From positions 2,542,001 to 2,606,000 of the forward strand of contig NZ_PTRA01000001.1 in NCBI RefSeq assembly GCF_002943425.1: 64,000 bases of DNA, given 5' to 3'. The stretch comes from Siphonobacter curvatus. Lineage in GTDB: Bacteria; Bacteroidota; Bacteroidia; Cytophagales; Spirosomataceae. Shown in pieces: positions 24,138 to 37,967 of this stretch. The position numbers and the translations under genes are program-made. The notes below the pieces were generated by a model that saw nothing but the letters and a program-made list of their open reading frames with translations, was not told the DNA's origin and searched no databases. Position 1 is the first letter of the stretch. Each line of letters starts with the position of its first letter.

Positions 24138-26663
24138 ATGAATAAATGGTACCTGGCAATTTTGTTGCTTTCGTTGGCTTGCGTAACGCAGGCTCAACAT
24201 GTCATTAAAGGTCGAATTACCGACGCCACAACGGGCGATCCGATTCCCTTCGCAGCAGTAGGATTAAAAGGCGGTTCAGCCGGTGGCAATACTGATTTTG
24301 ACGGAAACTACAGCTTTGCGGCCCGACAACTCAGCGATTCCATTTTTGTCAGCTACATTGGTTACCAACGGGCGACCAAAGCCGTACAACCCGGTCTAGC
24401 CGAACAAACCATTGATTTTCAACTCATGGCGGGGTCTTCGCAGCTACGGGAAGTGCGGGTATACGCTAAGGGAGAAAACCCGGCGTTCCGCATTATTCGC
24501 AACGCCGTAGCCGCCAAATCAACGCACGACTGGCGGAATTTAAAAGCGTATGAATACGAGAGTTACGTCAAAAATGAGTTTGATGTCAACAAGATTTCGG
24601 ATCAGTTTCGGAAAGGCCCTATCGGTAAAAAAATCACCGGACCGCTCGAAAAACTCCAGAAAATTGCTGGAGACGATGGCAAACCCATTATTCCCATTTT
24701 CCTCTCGGAAAGCTTTTCAGACTACTACCACCGCCGCAATCCCGAGCTGACCAAAGAACGCATCAACAAAACCAAGATTACGGGTGTGGGTATTACGGAT
24801 GGCAGCACCTTTTCGCAGTTCATTGGTAGTGCCTTCCAGCAGTATAACTTTTACGAAAACTGGCTTCCCATTCTTCGAAAAGAGTTCATTTCACCCATTG
24901 CCGATGGCTGGCGAGGTAGTTACGATTATTTCCTTGGCGATACGATTCAGATTGATAATGCCCCCTGCTACGAAATAGAAGTGACGCCGCGTCGGGCTCA
25001 GGATCTGGCTTTTGTGGGCAAAATCTGGATTGATACGGCCGATTACGCCCTGCGTCAGGTGGACTTACGGATTTCGGGGGATGCCAACATCAATTACGTG
25101 GAAAGCATCGCGATTCAGCAGCAACTGACGGTTGTCGAAGATTCAACCACGAAACAACGAGCCTGGCTTCCCAAGCAGACTCGCGTACTGATTGATGTGA
25201 AGGAGTTTACGAAGAATTCCGTGGGTTTTCTGGCGAAATTTTTCGTCTCCAATCGCAACTTTAAAATCAATCAACCCCGGGAAGCGACTTTCTATAATCC
25301 AGCGGTTGAACTAGCAGATCATTACCGGGAACAAAAGGATAATTACTGGCAACAGATTCGACCGGATTCATTAACGGCCGAGGAAAGAACGGCGTATTCC
25401 CTGATTGATTCCGTCAAGAATATTCCCATTGTTCGGTCGTATACCCAGATTTTATCCATCATTGCGAATGGGTATCAGCGAATTTATAACGGCATTGAAC
25501 TGGGTCCCTTTTTGAGTACGGGAGCCTTCAACACCATCGAAGGACTACGCTTACGGGCGGGCTTCCGAACGAACGCCGAGTTCAGTAAGGTATGGGTATT
25601 GAGCGGGTATCTGGCCTACGGATTCAAGGATAATGTCATGAAATACGGTGCTGACGCTAAATACATCATCAGCCGTAAACCCTGGGCTGAGATAGGAGCT
25701 AGTACCAGTTACGATTTAGAACAGATTGGTCTGACGACTGAAGCCGTAGGGAACAATAGCCTCTTTGCCACCTATTCCCGCTTTGGCCGCTATCGGCGGG
25801 GGTATTACCAACGTGAGTACATGTCCTACATTCGGGCCGAACTTATCAAAGGTCTGACGCCCATGATTGGGATTCGTCGACGTAGTTTTGAACCGTTGTA
25901 CAACTTCGCTTACGTGAACAATGGGGATCCGTCCGGTCAATCGGGTACGTACCAGAATACGGAGCTCATAACGGAGTTACGGATTGCGAAAAACGAACTC
26001 TTCATTTACAACGACAACGACCGGGTCAGTCTAGGTACGGCTCAGTCGCCCATCTATACACTGCGGTATTCCCTCGGCCTTCAAAACACGCTAGGTGGCG
26101 ATTTCAATTACCATCGGTTTACGCTTACGATGGCTGATAATTTTCGGGTGGGTATTCTGGGAAGAAGCTTTTACACGCTTTCGGCGGGATATACGCCTTC
26201 CACGCTACCCTATCCCCTGCTCTTTCCGCATTTAGGAAACCAGTCCCTTTTTTACGTGGGCAACGCCTTTAACATGATGAACTACTTCGAGTTCTTATCC
26301 GATCGGTACGCCTCTCTGAAGTATGAACACAACTTTGAAGGGTTGCTCTTCAACCGGCTTCCGGCCATCAAACGTTTGAAATGGCGGACGTTACTCAACG
26401 TCAATGTATTGTATGGTGGAGCCCGACAGGCTAATCGGGACATTATTCCCGATTACGATTTGCAGGGGAACCCAATTCCCGGTTTTGGTTCGCTGAATCC
26501 CAGTACGCCGTACGTAGAAGTAGGCTACGGAATCGATAATATTTTCAAGTTTTTCCGGATCGAAGCCATTCACCGACTAACGTACCTGAATCAGCCCACG
26601 ACCATCGACGGTGTTAAAATCAATCGTTTTGCGGTGAAAGCTTCGGCGTATTTCACGCTATAA
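24138..26663 (+). CDS. DUF5686 outer-membrane protein with carboxypeptidase-regulatory-like domain
   Basis: 841 aa, a usual length for this Bacteroidota family. Signal peptide (MNKWYLAILLLSLACVTQAQ), then a CarboxypepD_reg-like domain (about 21-105; GRITDATTGDPIPFAAVGLK ... VSYIGYQRATK), then DUF5686 (about 110-841), with AYEYESYVKNEFDVNKI near its start and amphipathic beta strands at the C terminus ending in RFAVKASAYFTL, consistent with an outer-membrane barrel. The function is not established. The last 11 nt overlap the end of the antiparallel ABC ATPase gene. Confidence 0.9.
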   Translation: MNKWYLAILLLSLACVTQAQHVIKGRITDATTGDPIPFAAVGLKGGSAGGNTDFDGNYSFAARQLSDSIFVSYIGYQRATKAVQPGLAEQTIDFQLMAGSSQLREVRVYAKGENPAFRIIRNAVAAKSTHDWRNLKAYEYESYVKNEFDVNKISDQFRKGPIGKKITGPLEKLQKIAGDDGKPIIPIFLSESFSDYYHRRNPELTKERINKTKITGVGITDGSTFSQFIGSAFQQYNFYENWLPILRKEFISPIADGWRGSYDYFLGDTIQIDNAPCYEIEVTPRRAQDLAFVGKIWIDTADYALRQVDLRISGDANINYVESIAIQQQLTVVEDSTTKQRAWLPKQTRVLIDVKEFTKNSVGFLAKFFVSNRNFKINQPREATFYNPAVELADHYREQKDNYWQQIRPDSLTAEERTAYSLIDSVKNIPIVRSYTQILSIIANGYQRIYNGIELGPFLSTGAFNTIEGLRLRAGFRTNAEFSKVWVLSGYLAYGFKDNVMKYGADAKYIISRKPWAEIGASTSYDLEQIGLTTEAVGNNSLFATYSRFGRYRRGYYQREYMSYIRAELIKGLTPMIGIRRRSFEPLYNFAYVNNGDPSGQSGTYQNTELITELRIAKNELFIYNDNDRVSLGTAQSPIYTLRYSLGLQNTLGGDFNYHRFTLTMADNFRVGILGRSFYTLSAGYTPSTLPYPLLFPHLGNQSLFYVGNAFNMMNYFEFLSDRYASLKYEHNFEGLLFNRLPAIKRLKWRTLLNVNVLYGGARQANRDIIPDYDLQGNPIPGFGSLNPSTPYVEVGYGIDNIFKFFRIEAIHRLTYLNQPTTIDGVKINRFAVKASAYFTL

Positions 26664-27426
26664 AAGAATCGCCTAACTGTTGCTGAATTTCCCGGACAAT
26701 AGCCAGTCCACTAGCTAGAAACTCCCGCACGTAGGTCGTAGCTGGATACTGAAGCAATTCGGCAGGCGTGCCCGTTTGCAGGAGCTTACCTTCCTGCATT
26801 ACGCCCATTCGCTGAGCGATGGTCAGGGCATCGAGTAAATCGTGGGTTACGAACAGACAGGCCAGCCCCGTTTCCTGAATAATCCGTTTGAGTTCCTGCT
26901 TTAGCTTCTGACGATTGAGCGTATCCAGATTCGAAAAAGGCTCATCCAGCAGGAGTACTTTAGGTTCGTCGGCAATGGCCCGGGCAATAGCCGTACGCTG
27001 TTTTTCCCCGCCCGACACTTCCCGGGGAAGCTTGTGTTGAACTGCTTCCAGTCCGATTAAAGCCAGCAGCTCATCGAGACGTTCGCGTTGGTATTCTTTG
27101 GTATACTCCCGTAGGGCGTAAGCAATATTTTCCCGGATGGTGTGATTGGGCAGAAGCTTGTACTCCTGCGGTACGAGTTTAATCTCCGCATGACCTGGGA
27201 TGAGGTACTTCGCTGAAGAAGAAATCTCCTTGCCTTCCAGCCATAATTCCCCCGCATCCGCCGGAGTCAGGCAGGCTAACACGTTCAGGAGCGTGCTTTT
27301 ACCGGCCCCACTGGCCCCGATCATGGCAAAAATTTCACCCGCCCGCAAGTCCAGCGAAAGGTCTTCAATAATGAGGTGCTCGCCTACGCTTTTCTGTAAG
27401 TGTTGGGCTTGTAAAAGTGAATTCAT
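26653..27426 (-). CDS. ABC transporter ATP-binding protein (PotA/ModC-like)
   Basis: 257-aa ATPase: Walker A GASGAGKST near residue 36, Q loop LVPQEYKL, signature VSGGEKQRTAIARA, Walker B VLLLDEPFSNLD and switch His in FVTHD. The arrangement DEPFSNLDTLNRQKLKQELK and the C-terminal LQTGTPAELLQYPATTYVREF resemble importer ATPases of the PotA/ModC/CysA group, yet no substrate-binding protein or importer permease is nearby. It is the last of three co-directional genes (ATPase, permease, ATPase) with an 18-nt gap, so it may be co-transcribed with the exporter without sharing its task. Confidence 0.88.
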   Translation of the reverse strand: MNSLLQAQHLQKSVGEHLIIEDLSLDLRAGEIFAMIGASGAGKSTLLNVLACLTPADAGELWLEGKEISSSAKYLIPGHAEIKLVPQEYKLLPNHTIRENIAYALREYTKEYQRERLDELLALIGLEAVQHKLPREVSGGEKQRTAIARAIADEPKVLLLDEPFSNLDTLNRQKLKQELKRIIQETGLACLFVTHDLLDALTIAQRMGVMQEGKLLQTGTPAELLQYPATTYVREFLASGLAIVREIQQQLGDSFIA

Positions 27427-27444
27427 CCCACAAAAATGGGGAAT

Positions 27445-29115
27445 TTACTGGAACTGGCTCCAGCGAAGTCGCCGATAACTTTTCAGCGTACTCCACAACA
27501 ATACGCCGTAGAGTAAGACCATGAACAAGCCGCCACCGGACACTTTCGTTGCTCCCCAGTGGATTAGACCGCATACAGGCAGTACCAGCATGATCATGAT
27601 CAACATCAGGGTTGTACGTCCGGCATCCGCTTTCACTTTGGGCTCCTGCGAAAACGGTACCTTCCAGTTCGAATTCTTTGTCCAGGCTTCCAGGCTGGTT
27701 ATGAAAAGAGCAAACAGATAGCCCGCCAGCAGATCATCGATGATGTGCCATCCCCAGATACTCAGTAGCAACACGGAAGAAACCAGATAGAACGGCGTAT
27801 AGAATTTCAATATAGCGGCCTTGAAATTTCCCAGAATCAGCTCGCTCGGTTCGGCAACGGGGGCCGCGTCGTATACCCAGGAGGCTTTGTAATCGTCGGA
27901 CTGATAGGTATTCGCGTAGAAGGTTCCGGCCACCACCTGTAATACATAAATGCCCACCAGATAAAGAGCTCCTTCCCGAATCTGATCGAGTGACTGGCGG
28001 CCATTCAGCACCGGTCCGATGATCACAAACAGTAGTGGAACGATGGAGCCCATAGCCGGATACGTCCGCATCTTAAAGCGACGATCGCGACCCGTAATCT
28101 TCCAGGATAACTCGAAGGTGGCTCGCTCGGCGGGACTGTTCGTAACTGCTTCTGCCAGCCAGGGCAGTAATCCCCGCCGGGATTTTTCAACGACCACTTT
28201 ATCCTCTTCTGATCCTGTAGAGGCCAGACCCGCCAGTTTTTTGGTAAATGAAGGAGCCAGGTATTTACTGTTCACGTAGATCAATGCTGGTGGTACCAAA
28301 ATGGCCAGAGCCGACAGAATCAGGTGAGGCGTATCGTACTGTTGCTGATAAAACATATCCGCCAAACCCGCCAGCCAGGCGGAGGGGACAGCGTAATACC
28401 ACGTTCGAATGGTATTCTCCGCTTCCATCACTTCACCGAGACGAATCATGCGAGGCATAATCTGATAGCCCGCCGTGAATAAAATCGACATGGCAATCTG
28501 GATGTAACTGATGATGTCTTTGACCCGTTCCTGACTCGAAAAACGCACCACCAGCATATAGAGTAAGGTCGTCAGAAAAACGGCAATCAGAACGGCCTGC
28601 AGACTTAGTAACACAAAAACGGGTACGATTACCCATCCATATTTAATGCCTACAAATACAGTCGGCAATAGAATAATGCTTAGCGTCAGCAGGGTAATAT
28701 AGCCCGTTAGGTGTACCAGTCGAGCCATCCAGATAGTACGGTCGCTTACGGGTCGAGGTAATAAAATCAGATTATCCGTTGTATCGAGTAACAATTCCGA
28801 ATAGTCGGTAATGAGGGTAAGGGCCACCCAGGCAATGACGTAGCCCAGTACGATGGTCAGAGCCAGCAGTAATGAAGGAGCGATGAATAGGAAAGAACCG
28901 ATGAGCCCGCCCAGCAGAGCATTGATGCCATACACCATCAGCAGACGTTGACTGGACTCTTTTTCCTGGTAGCGTTTGCCCAGTGAAGCGTGATTGCGAC
29001 GGTTATCCATCGTAAACTTGACTTCCACGATGTTTCGCATCATAGCATAATCCACGCCAAGCATACGGAACAGCCCCTGGAGTCGATCCAGTAACCAAAG
29101 TATAGAAGAGGTCAT
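27445..29115 (-). CDS. ABC-2 type exporter permease-like membrane protein
   Basis: 556-aa integral membrane protein with about ten hydrophobic segments, arranged as a first bundle (about 60-300), a charged cytoplasmic stretch (about 300-360, GSEEDKVVVEKSRRGLLPWL) and a second bundle. It lies 11 nt behind the ATPase gene at 29127, the classic ATPase-permease order of an exporter, so that pair is the likely functional unit. I recognise no substrate-specific subfamily. Phrases such as VEVKFTMDNRRNHASLGKRY near the N terminus may be the coupling helix. Confidence 0.8.
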   Translation of the reverse strand: MTSSILWLLDRLQGLFRMLGVDYAMMRNIVEVKFTMDNRRNHASLGKRYQEKESSQRLLMVYGINALLGGLIGSFLFIAPSLLLALTIVLGYVIAWVALTLITDYSELLLDTTDNLILLPRPVSDRTIWMARLVHLTGYITLLTLSIILLPTVFVGIKYGWVIVPVFVLLSLQAVLIAVFLTTLLYMLVVRFSSQERVKDIISYIQIAMSILFTAGYQIMPRMIRLGEVMEAENTIRTWYYAVPSAWLAGLADMFYQQQYDTPHLILSALAILVPPALIYVNSKYLAPSFTKKLAGLASTGSEEDKVVVEKSRRGLLPWLAEAVTNSPAERATFELSWKITGRDRRFKMRTYPAMGSIVPLLFVIIGPVLNGRQSLDQIREGALYLVGIYVLQVVAGTFYANTYQSDDYKASWVYDAAPVAEPSELILGNFKAAILKFYTPFYLVSSVLLLSIWGWHIIDDLLAGYLFALFITSLEAWTKNSNWKVPFSQEPKVKADAGRTTLMLIMIMLVLPVCGLIHWGATKVSGGGLFMVLLYGVLLWSTLKSYRRLRWSQFQ

Positions 29116-29126
29116 AAGGGATCGAG

Positions 29127-29900
29127 TTATTGTAAGGCCTGTAAGAATTCTGAAGCCTTGCTCTGCGTGGTATCGTCGCCGGTAAGTCCCTGGAAAATGC
29201 GTTCGAGCGAACCCGAATGAGCCTGAGCTTTCAATTCTTCAAAACTGCCGTTGGCAATCACCTGCCCCTGATTGATGATGACGATGCGATCGGAAATCTT
29301 TTCGACCACGTCCATGATGTGCGAGGAGTAGAAGATCGTTTTTCCAGCCGTTTTGAGCTGAGCCAGAATTTCCTTGACCAGGATCACGGCGTTGGCATCC
29401 AGTCCGGATAAGGGTTCATCCAGAAAGATGATTTCGGGATTATGAATGAGGCCGGAGATGAGCAGTACCTTCTGTCGCATGCCTTTGGAAAAGGTATTCA
29501 TGCGACTGTTGATATGATTGGACAGACCGACCAGATGCAGTAAATCTTCCGCTTTCCGTTGAATCACGGCGTCGCTCATGCTGTACAGACGGCCAATGAA
29601 GGTGAGGTATTCCACGGGAGTCAGTACTTCGTAGAGAGCCGCATTTTCGGGAACGTACCCGACTTGTTTCTTGATTTCGAGAGCCTCCGTCCGGATGTCC
29701 TGTCCGAGCACCCGTACTTCGCCGGTAAAACTGGGAATCATCCCCAGCAGAATTTTGATAGTCGTGGATTTCCCCGCTCCGTTGGGACCAATGTAGCCGA
29801 CGATCTCTCCGGCTTGTACTTCCAGATTAATGCCTTTGAGTACGAGCTGGCCATCGTTGTAAGCGTTTTGCAGGTTTTCAATCGAAATAACGGTAGACAT
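29127..29900 (-). CDS. ABC transporter ATP-binding protein (CcmA/YhaQ-type exporter ATPase)
   Basis: 257-aa ATPase: Walker A GPNGAGKST (about 37-45), Q loop YVPENAALY, signature FSKGMRQKVLL (the SKGM variant typical of ABC-2 exporters), Walker B IIFLDEPLSGLD and switch His YSSHIMD. First gene of a three-gene minus-strand operon, 11 nt before the multi-TM permease. It probably energises export of a lipid, peptide or drug; the substrate is unknown. Confidence 0.92.
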   Translation of the reverse strand: MSTVISIENLQNAYNDGQLVLKGINLEVQAGEIVGYIGPNGAGKSTTIKILLGMIPSFTGEVRVLGQDIRTEALEIKKQVGYVPENAALYEVLTPVEYLTFIGRLYSMSDAVIQRKAEDLLHLVGLSNHINSRMNTFSKGMRQKVLLISGLIHNPEIIFLDEPLSGLDANAVILVKEILAQLKTAGKTIFYSSHIMDVVEKISDRIVIINQGQVIANGSFEELKAQAHSGSLERIFQGLTGDDTTQSKASEFLQALQ

Positions 29901-30023
29901 AGGGGTGGGTTTGGTTAGGTATTCGTTTGCTAAGCGTTTGTTCTCTATTTCGTTTCACTTTAGGGATGAGCCTTTTACCACGGAGATGCCTACAAACAGA
30001 ATACCTTTCGTCTTGCAATCCAT

Positions 30024-31238
30024 TCAGCCCCCTACGGTACTACCTTCGCCCACCCACTTTTTCATACCTGAAACTACATCAAACTTCAAACTCGAAACAG
30101 TACTTTTTACAACAACTGGCGTTTCCATCGTAGGGACGGTCATTCCGTAGTTCGAGCGTTTTTTCTTCCCGCTTATGGTTACCAGAACGAAGACTAACAT
30201 CAGGAAAGCCAGTACTGCCAGCAATACTTTCCAAAACGATACGGGCCGTTTGCCGTCAATGCTTCCCGTTTGACCATTGATTAGAAACTGGTACGTTTTC
30301 CCATTGTACTGGTAAGCACAAATCCAGAGCGGGAGAATCAGGTGTTTGAAGGTTTGGTTGGCATACTGCGTACGCACGCTCAGATTTCGGTACGTATCGT
30401 CGGATAACAAGTCCGCACAGGCCGATTCAATGCGTTGATCTACCTGTTGTTTCGCCACCGCAAAGCCTTCCTGCGGATCAACCTTATATACCTCCGACTC
30501 CCAACCCAGCAGGACTTTAGGTTCGTAATTAACGACCTGATCCAGCAGAAAAGGATACACGCCCTGGATGGTTTGCTGGGGTAACTGCCGCGAAGCCAGA
30601 ATCAGTACATCGTCAAAAAATTGGTCGTAGGTACCATTGCGGTACCACCAGCGGGTGCGGCGTACCTGCTGCGTTCGAACGTTCCCATTTGGATCGCGTA
30701 CGCGTTCGGTTTCGTAGTAGTACGTACCCGCGTCTCCCTCCCATTCCGAATGCGTCTGCACATCGTAAGTCCAGAAGGGAATGTAGATGCCGTGCAACGT
30801 ATCGAGTCGGGCCAGGTTTTTCAAATCATTCGGTGCCCAGATGCTCTGACCAATCCATTTTTTAAAGGATTCCGAAGCCTGATTCCGGGAGATTCGAAAG
30901 GGAACAATACCCTGCGGCTCGAACAGCCGGGTTTTCGTGGCTTCGGGGTTAACGTTCTGCGAACCACAAAAACCGCAGCTAATCGTTGGCGTGTCGTAAT
31001 TGACCACTGTTTTGGCCCCACACCGCTGACAGGAAAACAACCGCCGTTCCACCGTATGTTCCGTATCCGTACGGGCCCGGTTGAAGTCCAGTTCTTCAAT
31101 TCGATCGTTGCCCAGGGTAAGTTTTTCGGTATAGCCACAGTGATTACAGGTCATGGCTTCTTTTTCGGCACTGTACTGCAACTGGGCACCGCAACTGGGG
31201 CAAGGGCAATGAAGAATATCGTCAAGTTCGCGTTCCAT
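30024..31238 (-). CDS. Membrane-anchored TFIIB-type zinc-ribbon protein (YdjG-like)
   Basis: 404 aa from the ATG at 31238 (a GTG at 31262 is possible). The first 90 residues hold two zinc ribbons, CPSCGAQLQYSA...CNHCGY and CQRCGAKTVVNY...CGFCGS. A beta-rich middle (FRISRNQASESFKKWIG, YIPFWTYDVQTHSEWEGDAG) follows, then a membrane segment about 335-356 (FWKVLLAVLAFLMLVFVLV) and a short basic, Ser/Thr-rich tail. NCBI uses the name TFIIB-type zinc ribbon for such proteins, including Bacillus YdjG, which recruits PspA and the SPFH protein YdjI to the membrane. Here a PspA-like and an SPFH gene lie within 5 kb, which supports the comparison; the assignment is inference. Confidence 0.82.
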   Translation of the reverse strand: MERELDDILHCPCPSCGAQLQYSAEKEAMTCNHCGYTEKLTLGNDRIEELDFNRARTDTEHTVERRLFSCQRCGAKTVVNYDTPTISCGFCGSQNVNPEATKTRLFEPQGIVPFRISRNQASESFKKWIGQSIWAPNDLKNLARLDTLHGIYIPFWTYDVQTHSEWEGDAGTYYYETERVRDPNGNVRTQQVRRTRWWYRNGTYDQFFDDVLILASRQLPQQTIQGVYPFLLDQVVNYEPKVLLGWESEVYKVDPQEGFAVAKQQVDQRIESACADLLSDDTYRNLSVRTQYANQTFKHLILPLWICAYQYNGKTYQFLINGQTGSIDGKRPVSFWKVLLAVLAFLMLVFVLVTISGKKKRSNYGMTVPTMETPVVVKSTVSSLKFDVVSGMKKWVGEGSTVGG

Positions 31239-31570
31239 AGGGGAAATGAGTGTTTCGTGCACGTTTCAGACGTTTCTAATTCGTCGCCGATCCGAACCAC
31301 CAAACGTATTTATCTTCCCGAAAAAACGCATTTTTTTGAAATCCTTTCAACAGTCAACCTAATTTTCCCGGATTCTGTCAAGTCCTGCATCCGTTCGTAT
31401 GAATGCATGGGGTACAAAAAGGCAGGATTGTGGACCTTTGAAAGGAAGAAAGCGGGACTGGAAAGCATAGCAAGCGTGCAGGATCAAAATTTTAAGTAGA
31501 AAAACGGAGAGATTGCTCTGGAATACTACCTTGCCAGTCAAGCTTCATAATTTTACTAACTGGAAATGCT
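31239..31570. other. Divergent intergenic region at the head of the envelope-stress-like cluster
   Basis: 332 bp between the zinc-ribbon gene (minus) and the coiled-coil gene (plus). It holds the minus-strand -7 element at 31301-31308 and three closely spaced GTTTC copies (31251-31277) in the leader. Possible plus-strand -7-like words (GACCTTTG at 31433, TAATTTTA near 31548) each have one mismatch. No protein gene seen. Confidence 0.4.
31301..31308 (-). promoter_or_regulatory. -7 promoter element of the zinc-ribbon gene
   Basis: TACGTTTG on the minus strand, an exact TAnnTTTG match, about 62 nt upstream of the ATG at 31238. The -33 region shows T-rich sequence but no exact TTG. Confidence 0.4.
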
Positions 31571-32242
31571 ATGTCAGAAAATAAAGGTTTAGGCCGTAAG
31601 ATTTTAAACATCTTTTTTGAGGAAGCTCCCGAAGCGGCGAAAGGAACACCGGTAGCTCCGGCCACGCCTTCGCAACCCGTTCCAGCTCCAATACCGAGAT
31701 CTGTAACACCCAGTGGTACTACCGATGCTAAGTTCATCGATCACTTTGCTTCCGTACTGGAAAAGAATAATCTGCCCGGCCCCGATTATTTCGAATTCCG
31801 GGCTACGCTGAAAAATCTGACCAACCTCGGACTGAGTGAAGAGCAACAATTTCAGGCGGCCTGGGCCAGTTTCAAAGCCCTCAGTGGCGGTACCGATCCA
31901 TCCGGACTGGTCACCACGGCCAATCAATACCTAAGCGTCCTGCAAAAAGATCGTGAGGCTTTTTTGAAAAGTGTCGATCTGGCAGTTACCGAAAAAGTAG
32001 GCGGCTTACAGAACGAACAAAAAACGCTGGAACAGCAAAACGAAGCCCTAGCGAAGCAGATCCTTGATATTCAGAATCAGATCAACGCCAATAAGGAACG
32101 GCTGGCCCGGATCAGTGGCGAAGTGGACGAGCAGAGTGGAAAGCTCACGCAAAACCGGGCCAACTACGAAGCGACCTTCCAGCAATTTACCGAGCAGATT
32201 AAAAACGATACGCTAAAAATTGGTCAGTATCTAAAATCATAA
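31571..32242 (+). CDS. Soluble coiled-coil protein, first gene of the PspA-like operon
   Basis: 223 aa, not a family I can name. A short N-terminal segment (MSENKGLGRKILNIFFE), a Pro/Ala/Thr-rich flexible linker (about 20-50), a helical domain (about 52-125, SVLEKNNLPGPDYFEFRATL...) and a long coiled coil (about 130-215) with heptad-like EQKTLEQQNEALAKQILDIQ. No signal peptide or TM, so cytoplasmic. It sits 21 nt before the PspA-like gene, and the coiled coils suggest the two proteins interact. Confidence 0.7.
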   Translation: MSENKGLGRKILNIFFEEAPEAAKGTPVAPATPSQPVPAPIPRSVTPSGTTDAKFIDHFASVLEKNNLPGPDYFEFRATLKNLTNLGLSEEQQFQAAWASFKALSGGTDPSGLVTTANQYLSVLQKDREAFLKSVDLAVTEKVGGLQNEQKTLEQQNEALAKQILDIQNQINANKERLARISGEVDEQSGKLTQNRANYEATFQQFTEQIKNDTLKIGQYLKS

Positions 32243-32263
32243 CCTCAAAAACGCTACACATTC

Positions 32264-33280
32264 ATGGCTGATTTCTCACAATTGGGCGGTGGTACCGATG
32301 ATGCCGCCAAAAAATCATTCTGGAGTCGTCCGGAGGGAGTCGTCGGTTTTGTTTTCCTGATTGCCTTGGCCGGATTTGGGCTGGCGTATTTTAACCGGGT
32401 GGTTGAGTTTCTAATCAAAGTGACGGAAAATACCTTGTATCTCGCAGCTTTGCTGGCGGTGCTGGGCGTACTGATTTTTCTTTTTACCAGTAAAGACGTT
32501 CGTACGGCGGTTTTCTTTCTTTATAAAACTTTGATGCGGAAAATCACGGGTCTGGTGATTCAGCTCGACCCGATTGCGATCATGAAAATCTACGTGCAGG
32601 ATCTGAAAGATAAACGCCGGAAAATGCAGGGTCAGATTGATCAGCTGGCGGGACAATTGGTGAAGCTGAACCGGAAAATCAACGAAAACAACGATGCCAT
32701 CAAGCAGAAGTTTGCGGAAGCGAACAAGGCTCAAAGCCTGGCCGACAAGCCCGGTATGAAGGAGGCGGCTTCGCTGGCTACAATTGAAGGAGCGGGTCTA
32801 CAGGAAATGAACGAGAAACTGCTGCCCCTGCAACGCAATATGAAAACCGTACTGGCTTTTATGGAAAAGGTCAATACGAGTGCGGATTACATCATTAAGG
32901 AAACCGAAATCAAGGTTAAGCTGAAAGAAGCCGAATACCAGATTGTCAAGGAAAGCTCGAACGCCCTGCGAACGGCGGTGAGTATCTTTAAAGGGAATCC
33001 GGACAAGAAGTTTTACTTTGACGAATCCATGGAATACATTCAGGATGACATGAGCCAGAAACTCGGCGAAATGAAGCGGGCGATGGATCTGTCGATGGAT
33101 TTCATCAACTCAGTGGATATTCAAAACGGGGTATTATCCGATAAAGGTCAGGCCATGCTGGAAGCCTATAACAAAGGTGACTTCAAGCTGATCCAGTTGG
33201 ACTCTCCCACCCCTAGTTCGCCCAGTAACCGACCGATTAATCCCCCCAAGGATGAAGGCTATCGGAGCCTGTTGGAATAA
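32264..33280 (+). CDS. Two-TM, PspA-like coiled-coil membrane protein
   Basis: 338 aa. Hydrophobic segments at about 25-44 (GVVGFVFLIALAGFGLAYFN) and 54-76 (LYLAALLAVLGVLIFLF), then a largely helical region about 95-290 with PspA/ESCRT-III-like heptads (YVQDLKDKRRKMQGQIDQLA, VKLNRKINENNDAIKQKFAE). A Pro-rich tail (SPTPSSPSNRPINPPKDEG) ends the protein. PspA itself has no TM; a membrane-tethered PspA-like helix bundle is a variant. The assignment rests on helical pattern and context (zinc ribbon and SPFH neighbours), not on a recognised full domain. Second gene of the operon. Confidence 0.65.
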   Translation: MADFSQLGGGTDDAAKKSFWSRPEGVVGFVFLIALAGFGLAYFNRVVEFLIKVTENTLYLAALLAVLGVLIFLFTSKDVRTAVFFLYKTLMRKITGLVIQLDPIAIMKIYVQDLKDKRRKMQGQIDQLAGQLVKLNRKINENNDAIKQKFAEANKAQSLADKPGMKEAASLATIEGAGLQEMNEKLLPLQRNMKTVLAFMEKVNTSADYIIKETEIKVKLKEAEYQIVKESSNALRTAVSIFKGNPDKKFYFDESMEYIQDDMSQKLGEMKRAMDLSMDFINSVDIQNGVLSDKGQAMLEAYNKGDFKLIQLDSPTPSSPSNRPINPPKDEGYRSLLE

Positions 33281-33331
33281 TTTTCATACCCATACAACCG
33301 ATTCTCAATTTCAACTTATCCCTTTATTCAT

Positions 33332-34372
33332 ATGCAACGACTCACCGTAACGGGCCGACTGCTCATTACCGCCCTTATCCTGGCAGCCATTTACTTTGGC
33401 TTTAAGTACGTAGGCGGAGTTGATTTACTCAAATCGCTTCGCAAGGAAAATACGGAGGAAACGACCAGCCGCTCCTCGAACGAAGGTTCCGAAAGTGCCT
33501 CCTCCGAAGGGGTTGATGAGGAACAAACTACCACAACTTCCTCCTCGGCCACGCAATCCAACAAGCCCAGTTTCGATTACGAAGCTCCGGTACCCCAGGG
33601 TGGTACGCTGAAGGGCGTCGTAGAATTGGGAGCCAGCGGATTTAACTCCTTCATTATTCGGATAGACGATCAGAAAAACTGGAAACTCGAAAAAGCTGAG
33701 TTTGGCAACAGTTTGGTCATTGAAAACATGGCTACCGACGACGACGTACGGGCCGGTCTGAAAAAGTACATCGGCGGGATGCTCGACTTCGGCGTGGGTG
33801 GTCGTGATATCCACTTTGTGGTGAGTTCAGGAGCCGTCAAGGCGGACGTGACTCAACGCATCATCCGCGTACTAAAGTCGCTCAATTACTTTGTGAACAC
33901 CGTCTCAGCAGAACAGGAAGGTAAACTGGCCCTGCGAAGTGTACTTCCGACTGAGTTTTATGACTCGGCTTTCGTGGTAGACATTGGATCGGGTAATACG
34001 AAGATCTCCTGGAAAGAAGGAAATAAAACATCGGCTCTGGAAAGCTACGGTTCCAAGTATTTTCAGGAAGGGAAAAGCGATAATACGGTTTACGACGAAG
34101 TGAAAGCCAAAGCCAAGCAAATACCAAGTAGTCATCGTAAAACCTGCTTCATCATTGGTGGTGTGCCATTCGAGCTGGCGAAAGCGGTTCGTAAAGGTAA
34201 AGAGCGGTATACCGTACTGGATACTGCCGACGCCTACAAACTCGACAATGCTAAAACCCGGGCTGGTTTGAATATCTACAAAGCCATTGCGGATGGTACG
34301 GGTTGTGAAAAATTCGTATTCGACTGGGATGCCAACTTTACGATCGGCTTCCTGCTGGATTTGCCGAAGTAA
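33332..34372 (+). CDS. Membrane-anchored Ppx/GppA-like ASKHA-fold protein
   Basis: 346 aa. One membrane segment (about 8-25) is followed by a Ser/Thr/Glu-rich flexible linker (about 38-85), then a domain whose landmarks line up with exopolyphosphatase/GppA: GVVELGASGFNSFIIRID (phosphate-1 position, DIGSNS in Ppx), a helix then IHFVVSSGAVKADVTQRIIR, VSAEQEGKLALRSV (catalytic ISGEEEARLI position), FVVDIGSGNTKISWKEG (phosphate-2), CFIIGGVPFELAKAV (the GG loop), and an ending RAGLNIYKAIADGTGCEKFV...GFLLDL like the Ppx C-terminal helix. The first loop has Glu and no exact DxGSNS, so catalysis may be altered or lost. Positive charges on both sides of the TM leave topology open. Third gene of the operon, 51 nt behind the PspA-like gene. 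Confidence 0.7.
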   Translation: MQRLTVTGRLLITALILAAIYFGFKYVGGVDLLKSLRKENTEETTSRSSNEGSESASSEGVDEEQTTTTSSSATQSNKPSFDYEAPVPQGGTLKGVVELGASGFNSFIIRIDDQKNWKLEKAEFGNSLVIENMATDDDVRAGLKKYIGGMLDFGVGGRDIHFVVSSGAVKADVTQRIIRVLKSLNYFVNTVSAEQEGKLALRSVLPTEFYDSAFVVDIGSGNTKISWKEGNKTSALESYGSKYFQEGKSDNTVYDEVKAKAKQIPSSHRKTCFIIGGVPFELAKAVRKGKERYTVLDTADAYKLDNAKTRAGLNIYKAIADGTGCEKFVFDWDANFTIGFLLDLPK

Positions 34373-34401
34373 TTTGAAAAAAGATTGCGTTACGTTTGAT
34401 C

Positions 34402-34582
34402 GTTTAAAAAGTTTGAAGGTGGCCAGGGGTTTGACCCCTGGCTATTCGTATTAAACCCCTCTAGGGTTTTGAAACAGGTTTGGAATTTACGTTGGTAGTA
34501 TACTGCCCTTTCAAACCCTCGAACTTTTTTAAACCTTGTCATACTACTCAAACATTATTCAAACCTTAAACTTTTCAAACCT
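34402..34582. repeat. Intergenic block of inverted repeats inside the stress-like cluster
   Basis: Three copies of a GTTTAAAAAGTTTGAAGG-like word alternate in orientation: 34402-34419 forward, 34517-34534 and 34563-34582 reversed, with small indels. Between them lie a 9-bp hairpin (34422-34442) and a weaker AAACCC/GGGTTT dyad (34453-34469). The block separates the ASKHA gene from the polytopic protein gene. Confidence 0.5.
34422..34442 (+). terminator. Hairpin 50 nt behind the ASKHA gene, possible terminator or processing stem
   Basis: GCCAGGGGT pairs perfectly with ACCCCTGGC over a TTG loop. No T-run follows on the plus strand, so intrinsic termination would be weak; an mRNA-processing or stabilising stem is equally possible. 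Confidence 0.4.
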
Positions 34583-34608
34583 ACTAAAACCCCTTCCACC
34601 CTCTATCC

Positions 34609-35112
34609 ATGACGCTTCAGGATTTGTTCCGATCCGTTTCTCAGCAGCCGGGGCCTTTCGCCTTAGTATTGATGTGTATTCCATTGCTGGCCTTACTGGT
34701 TAATCTCTGGTCGGGGCGAACGCCGGAGGAGATTTTGCGGTGGAAATATGCGTATACTGTACTGGTTTACGCGGCGGCCATTCCGGGGGTCTTTGCTTTC
34801 ACGCTGAATATCTATCTTTTTCTCTTTGAACGACAGAGCGTCTGGACGATGAACCTGATTACGCAGGTCTTACCGATGATTAGCATGGGAGCTACCCTCT
34901 GGATGATCCGGCAAAAAATTCCGTTTTCGTACGTTCCCGGTTTTGGTAAATTGTCAGGGTTTCTGACCCTCATTGCCGCTCTAATCGGGGTGCTGTTTTT
35001 TCTGGATCGGCTGCATTTTTACGCCGTTACGTACGTTCCGTTTGCATACTTACTGATAGGCTTTGTGGGCGTGTTACTACTCATCCGCTTCGCCTGGAGC
35101 CGTTTGTTCTAG
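34609..35112 (+). CDS. Small polytopic membrane protein of unknown function
   Basis: 167 aa, almost entirely hydrophobic, with four or five predicted helices (about 18-35, 48-72, 84-100, 117-131, 140-160). A single basic loop (RTPEEILRWKYAYT) is its only obvious polar stretch. I recognise no family. It lies 236 nt behind the ASKHA gene, past a block of inverted repeats, and directly before a long terminator, so membership of the same operon is likely but not certain. Confidence 0.7.
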   Translation: MTLQDLFRSVSQQPGPFALVLMCIPLLALLVNLWSGRTPEEILRWKYAYTVLVYAAAIPGVFAFTLNIYLFLFERQSVWTMNLITQVLPMISMGATLWMIRQKIPFSYVPGFGKLSGFLTLIAALIGVLFFLDRLHFYAVTYVPFAYLLIGFVGVLLLIRFAWSRLF

Positions 35113-35160
35113 CAACACAAAAGCCCCGAAAGAATGGTCTTTCGGGGCTTTTGTGTTGCT
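35111..35160. terminator. Very long bidirectional terminator between the polytopic-protein and SPFH genes
   Basis: Two perfect 23-nt arms (35111-35133 and 35138-35160) around an ATGG loop, with a GAAAGCCCCG-type GC core and A/T runs on both sides. The left arm begins inside the stop codon of the plus-strand gene. It serves both convergent genes. Confidence 0.85.
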
Positions 35161-35178
35161 TACAACTGAAGAGAACCC

Positions 35179-36159
35179 TTACAGTTTTGCCAGTAATTCC
35201 GCTTTTTTAGCCGTGAACTCCTCTTCCGTTAAAATACCGGCGGCTTTCAGATCGCCTAGTTGTTTGAGTAAACCCATAATGTCTTCCTTCGACTGAGTCG
35301 GTTGAGCGGGCTGTGAAGCAGGAGCTACTGCTCCGGCCATCATGCCGCCCAGGTTCATCCCTACGATACTGGCCGCCGTACCCGAGTTTTCCGCCGCCTT
35401 TTCGATGGACATCCCCGCCTGAAACTGCTGGAAACGGGCCATATCCCCGACCATATTCATTTGTGTGGTCTTGTCGAGGAAGGCTTCTACTTCGGGAGGT
35501 AAAGACGTGTTTTCGATGTAGAACTTCACAATCTGGAGACCGTACTGATCGAAGTCGTTCCCCAGTAACGGTAGCAGCTTTTCCCCCAGTTCCGTATAGT
35601 TACGGGCCAGATCCAGTACCGAAACATTGGCTTCGGCAATGGCATCGGAGAATTTGGAGAAGATCGCTGAACGCAACTGTTCTTCAATATCGCCTACCCG
35701 TACCTGCGGATTGGTACCGGAAAATTCCTTGAGAAACTTTTTCGCTTCATTCACCCGGAACGTATACGTACCAAAAGCTCGAATCCGTACCTGCTTGAAT
35801 TCAGCATCACGAACGATGATCGGGTTGGCCGTACCCCACTTCAGGTTAGTAAACTGTTTCGTGTTCACAAAGTACACGTCCACCTTGAAGGGCGATTCAA
35901 ACCCGTATTTCCAAGACCGCAGTGTCGTCAGAATGGGCATGTTGGCCGTCGTCAGCTCGTGTCGTCCGGGCTGGAACACGTCGGCAATCTGACCCTCATT
36001 CATGAAAATGGCTACCTGACTTTCGCGTACGGTCAGTTGAGCCCCATATTTAATGTCATTGCCCTTGTCGGGAAATTTCCAGATGATGGTATCCGACGTA
36101 TCGTCGACCCATTCAATGACATTGATAAATTCATTTCGGATGAAATCAAAAATACCCAT
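35179..36159 (-). CDS. SPFH (band-7) protein with C-terminal SHOCT motif, YdjI-like
   Basis: 326 aa from the ATG at 36159; the frame reaches a TTG three codons earlier. It begins MGIFDFIRNEFINVIEWVDD and has an SPFH core (QLTVRESQVAIFMNEGQIAD ... QFTNLKWGTANPIIVRDAEF ... FGTYTFRVNEAKKFLKEFSG), a helical repeat (about 160-230) and a C-terminal zinc-ribbon-free SHOCT helix pair (DIMGLLKQLGDLKAAGILTEEEFTAKKAELL). This arrangement is that of Bacillus YdjI (virion core/SPFH), which works with PspA and the zinc-ribbon protein YdjG at damaged membrane. Here it has its own promoter on the opposite strand to the PspA-like operon. No TM segment is present; it probably associates with membrane through partners. 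Confidence 0.88.
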   Translation of the reverse strand: MGIFDFIRNEFINVIEWVDDTSDTIIWKFPDKGNDIKYGAQLTVRESQVAIFMNEGQIADVFQPGRHELTTANMPILTTLRSWKYGFESPFKVDVYFVNTKQFTNLKWGTANPIIVRDAEFKQVRIRAFGTYTFRVNEAKKFLKEFSGTNPQVRVGDIEEQLRSAIFSKFSDAIAEANVSVLDLARNYTELGEKLLPLLGNDFDQYGLQIVKFYIENTSLPPEVEAFLDKTTQMNMVGDMARFQQFQAGMSIEKAAENSGTAASIVGMNLGGMMAGAVAPASQPAQPTQSKEDIMGLLKQLGDLKAAGILTEEEFTAKKAELLAKL

Positions 36160-36191
36160 AGTGCACAAAAGAAGGTTTAAACTCAGTGAAT

Positions 36192-36199
36192 CAAAGCTA
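36192..36199 (-). promoter_or_regulatory. -7 promoter element of the SPFH gene
   Basis: TAGCTTTG on the minus strand, an exact TAnnTTTG match, giving a leader of about 27 nt. No exact -33 TTG. Confidence 0.45.
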
Positions 36200-36436
36200 T
36201 TAAAAGTTGAGGCTTTCCACCAGCCCTAGAAGTGATTTCTGCGGATTTTTTAATTTCGTCAAATCCTTCCCTTTGCGATTAATTTTCTTGCCTTATTAAA
36301 ACTTCATCAATGAAATCCTGTCCTTTTATAAAGAATTTAATACGAATACACATCACTGATTGTCAGTATATTACTAGTATTTTTTGCAATTTTCCAAGAA
36401 ATAAAATAAGGTTTTCCATTAGAAGATTTGTCAATA

Positions 36437-36468
36437 TTGTCAATCTGACACATCTTGCATTATATTTC
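36437..36468 (+). promoter_or_regulatory. Candidate xylB-xylA promoter with overlapping operator-like repeats
   Basis: TTG (36437-36439), 21 nt, then TATATTTC (36461-36468), one mismatch from TAnnTTTG. Transcription would begin only a few nt before the ATG at 36480, so the message may be nearly leaderless. Two TTGTCAAT copies 9 bp apart (36428 and 36437) and the dyad TGTCA-ATC-TGACA (36438-36450) overlap the -33 region, as expected for a repressor or activator site. Confidence 0.42.
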
Positions 36469-36479
36469 TCTGCTAACAC

Positions 36480-37967
36480 ATGCTTCTTCTAGGAATTGAC
36501 GTAGGTACCTCTTCGATTAAAGTCTCGGTTGTAGACGCCGATAGTCAGCAGGTTGTGGCTTCGGCTTCGTACCCTGATCTCGAAAATCCCATCTCTACGC
36601 CCCAGCCGGGCTTTGCCGAACAGGACCCGGCCATGTGGTGGAATTGCGTGCAACAGGCGATTCTGAAAGCCAATGCAACGGGAGCTTATAACCCCAAAGA
36701 CATCGGGGCCATCGGTATTGCCTATCAGATGCACGGGCTAGTTGTCGTAGATCGGAATGAACAGGTACTCCGGCCTTCTATCATTTGGTGCGATAGCCGG
36801 GCTGTTTCCTACGGAGAAGCTGCCTTTCAAAAAATAGGCTCGGAAAAAGCCCTGAGTCATTTGCTCAACTCGCCCGGTAATTTCACGGCCGCCAAGCTGG
36901 CTTGGGTGAAAGCCAATGAACCCAAAATCTACGGTAGTATTTACCAGATTATGTTGCCCGGCGATTACATCGCGATGATGCTGACGGGTTCCATTACGAC
37001 CTCTAACTCGGCGTTGTCGGAAGGTATTTTCTGGGATTTTCAGTCGAATCAGGTTTCCGAAGATGTACTGGATGCCTTTGGCTTTCCCAAATCGATTTTA
37101 CCCGAACTGCATCCTTTGTTTTCTGTACACGGAGAAGTGAAAAGCTCCATTGCCGATTTACTGGGTCTGAAAGCAGGTATTCCGGTTACGTACAAGTCCG
37201 GGGATCAGCCGAATAATGCTCTTTCCCTAAACGTGCTCGATCCCGGTGAATTTGCGGCGACGGCGGGTACTTCCGGCGTAGTATACGCGGTAACCGATCA
37301 GGTCAAATACGATTCTCAGAACCGCGTTAATACCTTCGCTCACGTCAACCACCAGCGGGATGACCAGACGCGACTGGGTATTCTGCTGTGCATCAACGGT
37401 ACGGGGATTCTGAATCGCTGGGTACGCGATCAGTTTGGCTCCGGTTTAACCTACAGCCAGCTCAACGAACTAGCTGCCACCGTGCCGGCGGGCAGTCAGG
37501 GGGTACAGATCCTTCCTTTTGGGAATGGAGCCGAACGCGTACTGGAAAATCGTACGGTTTCCAGTACCATTTCTGGGTTAGATTTCAATTACCACACGCG
37601 AAGTCACGTGTTCCGGGCGGCACAGGAAGGCATTGCTTTTTCGCTTAAATATGGGATGGATATCATGGCTACCATGGGAAGCCCGGCCAAGGTAGTACGG
37701 GCGGGTAAAGCCAATATGTTCTTGAGTGATGTTTTTACGGAATCATTCGTAAACGTTACTCAAACGCCCGTGGAGCTGTACGACACTGACGGCTCTAAAG
37801 GGGCGGCTCTCGGAGCAGGCGTTGGTCTGGGCTACTTCCAGGCTCCCAAAGAAGCCTTTAGTCGTTTAACGAAAGTCGCTACAGTAGAACCGAATGCATC
37901 GCAGGCGGATCAGTATCAGGAATTTTACGCGAACTGGCTTTCGCTATTAAAAAAATATTTGCAGTAG
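36480..37967 (+). CDS. xylB: Xylulokinase
   Basis: Phosphorylates D-xylulose to xylulose 5-phosphate for the pentose phosphate pathway; cytoplasmic. 495 aa of the FGGY kinase family: N-terminal [20 protein letters not shown], the family motif [24 protein letters not shown], and the catalytic Asp region [20 protein letters not shown] followed by [13 protein letters not shown]. The second half contains [20 protein letters not shown] and [16 protein letters not shown]. It is coupled to xylose isomerase 70 nt downstream, which fixes the substrate as xylulose. Confidence in the assignment is high. Confidence 0.95.

Follow-up and report, generated by a model that had tools for sequence, protein, structure and literature searches.

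Do the six genes that lie together at positions 30,024 to 36,159 of a 64,000-nucleotide stretch of Siphonobacter curvatus DNA (contig NZ_PTRA01000001.1; the whole stretch is hereafter called the window) make up one functional module, and what might their products do? A preliminary description of the window had proposed a single PSP-like envelope-stress module, consisting of a zinc-ribbon protein, a soluble coiled-coil protein (CC), a PspA-like protein (PSPL), a Ppx/GppA-like protein (ASKHA), a small polytopic protein (POLY) and an SPFH protein. Here, we report that CC, PSPL, ASKHA and, less strictly, POLY are a conserved unit, encoded by an operon at 31571-35112. A PspA-like module is supported, whereas its six-gene version is not: judged by gene order in relatives, the genes for SPFH and the zinc ribbon are a pair of their own, which the operon splits in Siphonobacter. 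We tentatively propose that the operon encodes a PspA-like membrane scaffold with an exchangeable head that reports the condition of the envelope, a reading that we regard as quite possible though short of probable. The locus contains the following features (TM, transmembrane; aa, amino acids).

30024-31262, minus strand: zinc-ribbon protein, 412 aa, two CxxC...CxxC ribbons, one C-terminal TM segment at residues 346-364
31571-32242, plus strand: CC, soluble coiled-coil protein, 223 aa, no TM segment; opens the operon
32264-33280, plus strand: PSPL, 338 aa, TM segments at 25-43 and 57-75, then a PspA/Vipp1-like helical domain at ~80-240
33332-34372, plus strand: ASKHA, 346 aa, anchor TM segment at ~4-22, a linker rich in Ser/Ala/Thr/Glu, Ppx/GppA-fold domain at ~86-346
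34609-35112, plus strand: POLY, small protein of 167 aa with four TM segments; closes the operon here
35113-35158, no strand: perfect inverted repeat in the gap between POLY and SPFH, 21-base arms and 4-base loop, probable bidirectional terminator
35179-36159, minus strand: SPFH (Band_7_1) protein with SHOCT tail, 326 aa, no TM segment

All six open reading frames are present where the preliminary description had placed them, and its counts of TM segments (one in the zinc-ribbon protein, none in CC, two in PSPL, one in ASKHA, four in POLY and none in the SPFH protein) are confirmed. They are real genes and not chance frames, because CC, PSPL, ASKHA and POLY are conserved as proteins across many genera, and the SPFH and zinc-ribbon proteins across genera of the family, where their identities are 70-74% and 50-55%, respectively. 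At another Siphonobacter locus (L076), identity to the window at ASKHA is 99%. The plus-strand run from CC to POLY has intergenic gaps of 21, 51 and 236 bases and ends at the 21-base inverted repeat, ahead of the convergent SPFH gene; the repeat was read directly from the gap sequence and was not listed by the pattern scan. Pfam recognizes the SPFH protein clearly (Band_7_1, PF13421, 1.5e-88; SHOCT, PF09851, 3.2e-8), gives sub-threshold matches only for the zinc-ribbon protein, CC and PSPL, and no match for POLY. No full match to a Bacteroidota-type promoter pattern was found in 29900-36500, and nothing in the locus reached the gathering threshold of Rfam. Within the 236 bases that separate ASKHA from POLY there is a further small inverted repeat, at ~34420-34445, which is rich in G+C and has no T tract.

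The conservation of the operon was followed in three collections. These are the best 80 of 366 ASKHA relatives in named genomes, taken from the ASKHA alignment (named ASKHA loci); an order sample of 118 Cytophagales genomes, 25 of which have PSPL relatives and which yielded 25 loci around PSPL from 24 genomes other than that of the window; and a family sample of 61 genomes, which overlaps the order sample and in which a PSPL match was called at 1e-30. The operon recurs across Cytophagales, PSPL occurring in the flanks of 68 of the 80 named ASKHA loci and about 8 kb off in two further ones, and CC is found in 66 of the 80 and POLY in 46. When the fetched order and class loci with a PSPL match are considered, 31 of 36 have CC. 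In the family sample 40 of the 44 ASKHA genomes have PSPL, the two genes being adjacent in 31, ~7 kb apart in three and further apart or on other contigs in six; in the order sample, 17 genomes have ASKHA, and 14 of these also have PSPL. Linkage across relatives is thus conserved for CC, PSPL, ASKHA and, less strictly, POLY, and not for the zinc-ribbon and SPFH genes. On a PSPL tree (38 proteins, quickly built and with long-branch warnings; used solely for label clustering and the minimum number of ASKHA joins), the ASKHA partner requires at least two separate joins. A complete CC-PSPL-ASKHA-POLY set with 54-77% identity is also present in Flavobacterium sp. SUN052 (L107), reflecting either horizontal transfer or an error in the name of the genome. 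In two genomes that belong to a single genus, a Na/Pi cotransporter with a PhoU domain lies near CC-PSPL (L173:6932-8623 and L175:11627-13318; the former was scanned, and the latter belongs to the same cluster).

The second protein of the operon is classed as PspA-like on the basis of its sequence profile, as the preliminary description had supposed for the 32264 protein; its fold match is consistent with this and not specific, and it falls below the Pfam threshold. A profile of 13 PSPL proteins retrieved proteins of other Bacteroidota at 1e-11 to 1e-6, eight of which, legible in the translated frame, we take by eye to be PspA. Alignment of the PSPL profile to seven of these with hhalign gave a probability of 93% (E 2.9e-7, 95 columns) over a stretch of the N-terminal region that covers the DP motif, the first coiled coil and the part ahead of that coiled coil, compared with 10% for CC against PspA and 14% for PSPL against CC as controls. 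For the predicted PSPL model (mean predicted local distance difference test score, pLDDT, of 69, and ~86 in the long hairpin), Foldseek ranked Vipp1 first (E 9.5e-3), with PspA 4whe matched at a template-modelling score of 0.77 of target (E 0.27); for an ESCRT-III-like fold the Vipp1 match is weak, and helical bundles match widely. The PSPL relative in L041 scores 19 of the 33.9 bits required by PF04012, below the gathering score, and a PF04012 scan of the window genome at a cut-off of 0.001 gave no match. A sequence-profile search of the PDB with PSPL returned four weak matches (E 0.03-0.066), mostly generic coiled coils, with neither PspA nor Vipp1 among them. PSPL had no match in plasmids, and a plasmid origin was therefore rejected. 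One genome (G010) has a very divergent PSPL together with POLY (L182:7023-9561), apart from its CC-ASKHA pair and adjoining a divergently oriented lipoprotein-like gene.

For the third protein, ASKHA, the score against Ppx-GppA (PF02541; 1.7e-4, 21.5 of 27 bits) does not reach the gathering score; its predicted model (pLDDT 83, predicted template-modelling score, pTM, 0.72) finds Ppx/GppA proteins best in Foldseek (1t6d, E 1.8e-13) and aligns to 6pc0 with a Z-score of 23.3 and a root-mean-square deviation of 3.1 over 248 residues, so that the Ppx/GppA-like assignment of the 33332 protein in the preliminary description is borne out. NTPDases are the next fold matches (Z 16.4-18.5). Eight residues are invariant in 46 aligned members (E98, G100, E196, D217, G219, G221, G276 and G277), and the residues of the phosphate-2 motif and the putative catalytic Glu196 are kept in every row. 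Glu196, which we take to be the catalytic glutamate, and D217, G219 and G221 of the phosphate-2 motif are aligned to the Aquifex Ppx/GppA enzyme (E 0.021). The phosphate-1 motif of the Ppx/GppA family has an Asp; in its place, all 46 rows have Glu98 and none has Asp. Since two ordinary Ppx/GppA genes lie elsewhere in the window genome, ASKHA is an extra, divergent member. At two loci, the ASKHA-CC genes directly follow three genes, which encode a vWA protein of 212 aa, a PP2C phosphatase and a serine/threonine kinase (L184:5137-10754 and L185:8097-13843; identified in L184, with the same clusters in L185). This triad resembles the TerY-P triad of Ter stress systems.

A different protein, with an OmpA domain at its C terminus, comes after CC-PSPL in 14 of the 25 order loci (in L039, after PSPL alone), and in 13 of these a permease and an ABC ATPase come next, L042 stopping at a contig edge. 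Two of the four OmpA fusions scanned (L045 and L038) have a recognizable TauA/SsuA/NMT1-type binding domain; those of L031 and L041 match only OmpA at family level, and their binding domain was assigned by full-length alignment, in which the L038 and L045 proteins are 24% identical to that of L031. Both kinds of protein can occur together, as in L031 and L032 (CC-PSPL-ASKHA-binding protein-permease-ATPase). Genome G060 has two PSPL genes, one beside ASKHA and the other beside the transporter (loci L026 and L039); the ASKHA-type PSPL clusters with the family of the window on the PSPL tree, which suggests that this module may have been acquired by transfer. Of the PSPL genomes, all 25 in the order sample and all 42 in the family sample encode ASKHA, the binding protein-OmpA fusion or both, the window genome having no full-length match to the fusion; conversely, all 15 transporter genomes of the order sample (14 full-length, one broken) have PSPL.

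The two proteins also begin alike. Over their first 45 residues, ASKHA and the binding protein are homologous, with a mean local score of 47.1, compared with 21.3 (standard deviation 3.1) for 407 TM-bearing control N-termini taken from the remaining genes at these loci and with 20.3 for shuffles. No control reached the ASKHA median, and four binding proteins found later scored 44.9-70.4. Because of this shared anchor, the co-occurrence, the gene pair of G060 and the minimum of two joins on the tree, ASKHA and the binding protein-OmpA fusion are best read as alternative heads on one conserved anchor.

Less can be said of the other two members of the operon. The N-terminal helix of CC is conserved and has an amphipathic moment of 0.58, compared with 0.44 (standard deviation 0.11) for shuffles, which is at most suggestive of an amphipathic helix. 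An ESCRT-I reading of CC was rejected, its Mod(r) match (1.6e-5) being below the cut-off and taken as coiled-coil resemblance. Matches of CC and the zinc-ribbon protein to defence systems (PADLOC) were likewise set aside as weak coiled-coil or zinc-ribbon resemblance, as were most of the matches to phage families, the sole strong PHROG match being to the SHOCT tail. At 18 of the 80 named loci, the end of POLY shares 19 bases with the gene for a protein of 221-235 aa, and in L025 (11701-12408) such a protein occupies the same place; it has no Pfam match in L155 (L155:10597-11262) and its gene is absent from the window. By its position, this protein is a possible fifth member of the operon.

The SPFH and zinc-ribbon genes follow a different pattern. 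Within the family sample, SPFH occurs in 14 genomes and the zinc ribbon in 13, all of them among these 14. In the nine genomes of other genera that have both, they are direct neighbours without exception, on the same strand with SPFH first and 18-318 bases between the matches. In all nine other-genus genomes that have SPFH and PSPL, SPFH lies at least 80 kb from PSPL or on a separate contig. Neither gene was found in the 25 order loci around PSPL, although contig ends truncate six of these loci (L027, L028, L030, L038, L042 and L043). Among the 80 named ASKHA loci, the zinc ribbon was found in four and SPFH in four, only among the five Siphonobacter loci (L076-L080); the other 75 have neither. 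In Siphonobacter the order SPFH-zinc ribbon is retained, with the operon between them on the opposite strand, and the simplest history, as we infer from the other genera, is that the operon was inserted into an older SPFH-zinc ribbon pair. The preliminary description had rightly kept these genes outside the operon, there being two units and not one. It had also counted them as module members, which the linkage data do not support, as they lie near the operon in Siphonobacter only. In the window, the zinc-ribbon gene is succeeded on its own strand by an ABC transporter (the two together at 26653-31262), and an ABC ATPase match follows the pair in L213 and L214 as well; SPFH-zinc ribbon-ABC is possibly a conserved string.

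From these observations, we infer the topology, ligand, signalling and membrane-repair role of the operon proteins as follows. PSPL would be held in the inner membrane by the TM hairpin that it carries, and its helical domain would lie in the cytosol, where CC would be its partner; the two would probably make up a scaffold that stabilizes or remodels the membrane. From the third gene would come a head that can be exchanged, on a membrane anchor that is conserved: in some genomes a protein that binds solutes and peptidoglycan and works with an ABC transporter, and here a Ppx/GppA-fold domain that would bind, and maybe hydrolyse, a phosphorylated ligand. The head would signal the condition of the envelope to the scaffold.

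Several observations weigh against this scaffold-and-head reading. PSPL is missing from the flanks of 12 of the 80 named ASKHA loci, seven of which are cut by contig ends; three genomes (G010, G004 and G055) have ASKHA with a CC-like neighbour and without PSPL nearby; and POLY was not seen in 34 of the 80. Seven family genomes have the transporter, and in five of them it is separate from CC-PSPL (near a contig start in G544); one of these five, G502, gave no PSPL match at 1e-30, so that a strict dependence of the transporter on CC-PSPL is broken by the family sample. A class-level set (f27) of five genomes has PSPL in nine 19-kb loci and CC in six of them, and neither head occurs within the nine loci, the rest of these genomes not having been searched for heads. 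As for PSPL itself, eukaryotic BAR domains (Z 12.7) come ahead of Vipp1/PspA (Z 10-10.6) in VIA-align, and the window protein fails the PF04012 gathering score, being unlisted at E up to 1. The stand-alone units among these cases (ASKHA without flanking PSPL, the separate transporter and PSPL without either head in the f27 loci) would also fit an alternative in which ASKHA (a phosphatase), PSPL (a membrane protein) and the transporter (an importer) are neighbours that are inherited together, each with its own function, and form no common complex. We consider this distinctly unlikely, since a functional tie is indicated by three observations: co-occurrence persists in genomes where the genes are unlinked, ASKHA and the binding protein have an anchor in common, and ASKHA has become joined to two or more types of PSPL. 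Very improbable, in our view, is one PSP-like module of all six genes, in which SPFH and the zinc ribbon tether the PspA-like protein as YdjI and YdjG do in Bacillus subtilis. The arrangement does recur in Siphonobacter genomes, and PSPL is commoner in genomes with SPFH (13 of 14 against 29 of 47; Fisher one-sided p 0.024, a weak association with kinship ignored); in B. subtilis, YdjI, YdjG and YdjH link PspA to the membrane (PMC8581546). However, six-gene linkage was not seen outside Siphonobacter (0 of 25 order loci and 0 of 75 ASKHA loci), SPFH and PSPL are far apart or on separate contigs in nine of nine other-genus genomes, 29 of the 42 PSPL genomes of the family sample have no SPFH match, and the TPM genes of the window genome lie elsewhere. 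Since PSPL has its own TM anchor, it may need no such tether.

On which side of the membrane the head would lie is a separate matter. In the binding protein-OmpA fusion, the payload on the shared anchor is of a periplasmic type, which suggests that the ASKHA head may be in the periplasm rather than the cytosol; binding protein and OmpA domains function in the periplasm, and the anchor flanks of the fusion fit an N-in orientation, the N-side being more positive in 15 of 15. ASKHA might then perhaps be a periplasmic sensor of leaked phosphate compounds. The full version, in which it senses nucleotides or polyphosphate leaking through a damaged inner membrane and activates the TM-anchored PspA-like repair scaffold, is in our estimate a long shot. 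A cytosolic head that detects a phosphate signal from within the cell (polyphosphate, ppGpp or ATP) and relays it to the PSPL scaffold on the same side appears unlikely as well, if not by a wide measure: Ppx/GppA enzymes of known substrate are generally cytosolic, the phosphate loops of ASKHA are intact, and the vWA-PP2C-kinase triad beside it in L184 and L185 is presumably cytosolic, whereas the anchor shared with the fusion and, weakly, the Ser/Ala/Thr/Glu-rich linker speak for the other side. The charges beside the anchor of ASKHA itself give no clear answer (of 89 proteins, 49 have a more positive N-side and 26 have equal sides), glycosylation motifs in its linker (0.17 per protein) are uninformative, and a disulphide argument for the periplasm was dropped (Cys272 in 40 of 46, Cys325 in 32, both in 29; no strict pair). 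Because the charges are ambiguous and the cysteines undecisive, we give a ligand-reading head more weight than its placement on either side of the membrane.

Compared with the Ppx/GppA family (6pc0, 1t6d and 3mdq), ASKHA keeps the fold, the phosphate-2 and GG motifs and the putative catalytic Glu; unlike these enzymes, it has an N-terminal anchor and linker and Glu98, lacks the C-terminal domain and scores below the Pfam threshold. Fold likeness extends to the NTPDase (apyrase) family, e.g. Legionella NTPDase1, at 10-14% identity in structural alignments, with no NTPDase sequence match among the PDB matches of ASKHA. NTPDases are ASKHA phosphohydrolases that work outside the cytosol; a periplasmic Ppx/GppA-type domain, if true, would be unusual, and if it also sensed leaked nucleotides or polyphosphate, the operon would encode a built-in leak sensor, with exchangeable heads, on a PspA-like repair scaffold.

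The likeness to the B. subtilis PspA-YdjG-YdjH-YdjI complex (PMC8581546) is confined to the separate pair: an SPFH (Band_7_1) protein and a zinc-ribbon membrane protein are adjacent in relatives of the window, like YdjI and YdjG, the likeness to YdjG being at the domain level. In contrast to that complex, a PspA-like protein is near the pair only in Siphonobacter and carries its own TM hairpin, and the window genome has no linked TPM or PF04012 PspA gene, its TPM genes lying far from the window (C1:548-550 kb and on C2).

A closer counterpart of the operon is found in a 2024 mSystems survey (PMC11237479), which describes operons that combine PspA and Snf7-TM proteins and an AAA+ ATPase with an ABC ATPase, a permease and a PBPB-OmpA protein (e.g. 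OGG56892.1). PSPL may be of this PspA/Snf7-TM operon kind, and since such operons are reported there, the link of a transporter to PspA-like proteins is already known. According to the same source, the way in which assembly is regulated by PspA homologues that lack an associated AAA ATPase is unknown; how PspA-like scaffolds sense damage is, in our judgement, likewise an open question. A TM-anchored scaffold with alternative heads on one anchor could allow sensing to be dissected by head swaps, with the ligand and the membrane side of the Ppx-fold head as the questions that it opens. The main text of the survey contains neither of the words ASKHA and exopolyphosphatase, and at the level of titles and abstract openings no description of the ASKHA-headed form was recognized in the literature searched. 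The operons described there have a linked AAA+ ATPase, whereas none is among the six genes of the window locus (neighbours in other genomes being partly annotated), and they have a transporter where the operon of the window has ASKHA and POLY instead. The transporter-linked form has thus already been published, and the ASKHA-headed form appears to be the new aspect.

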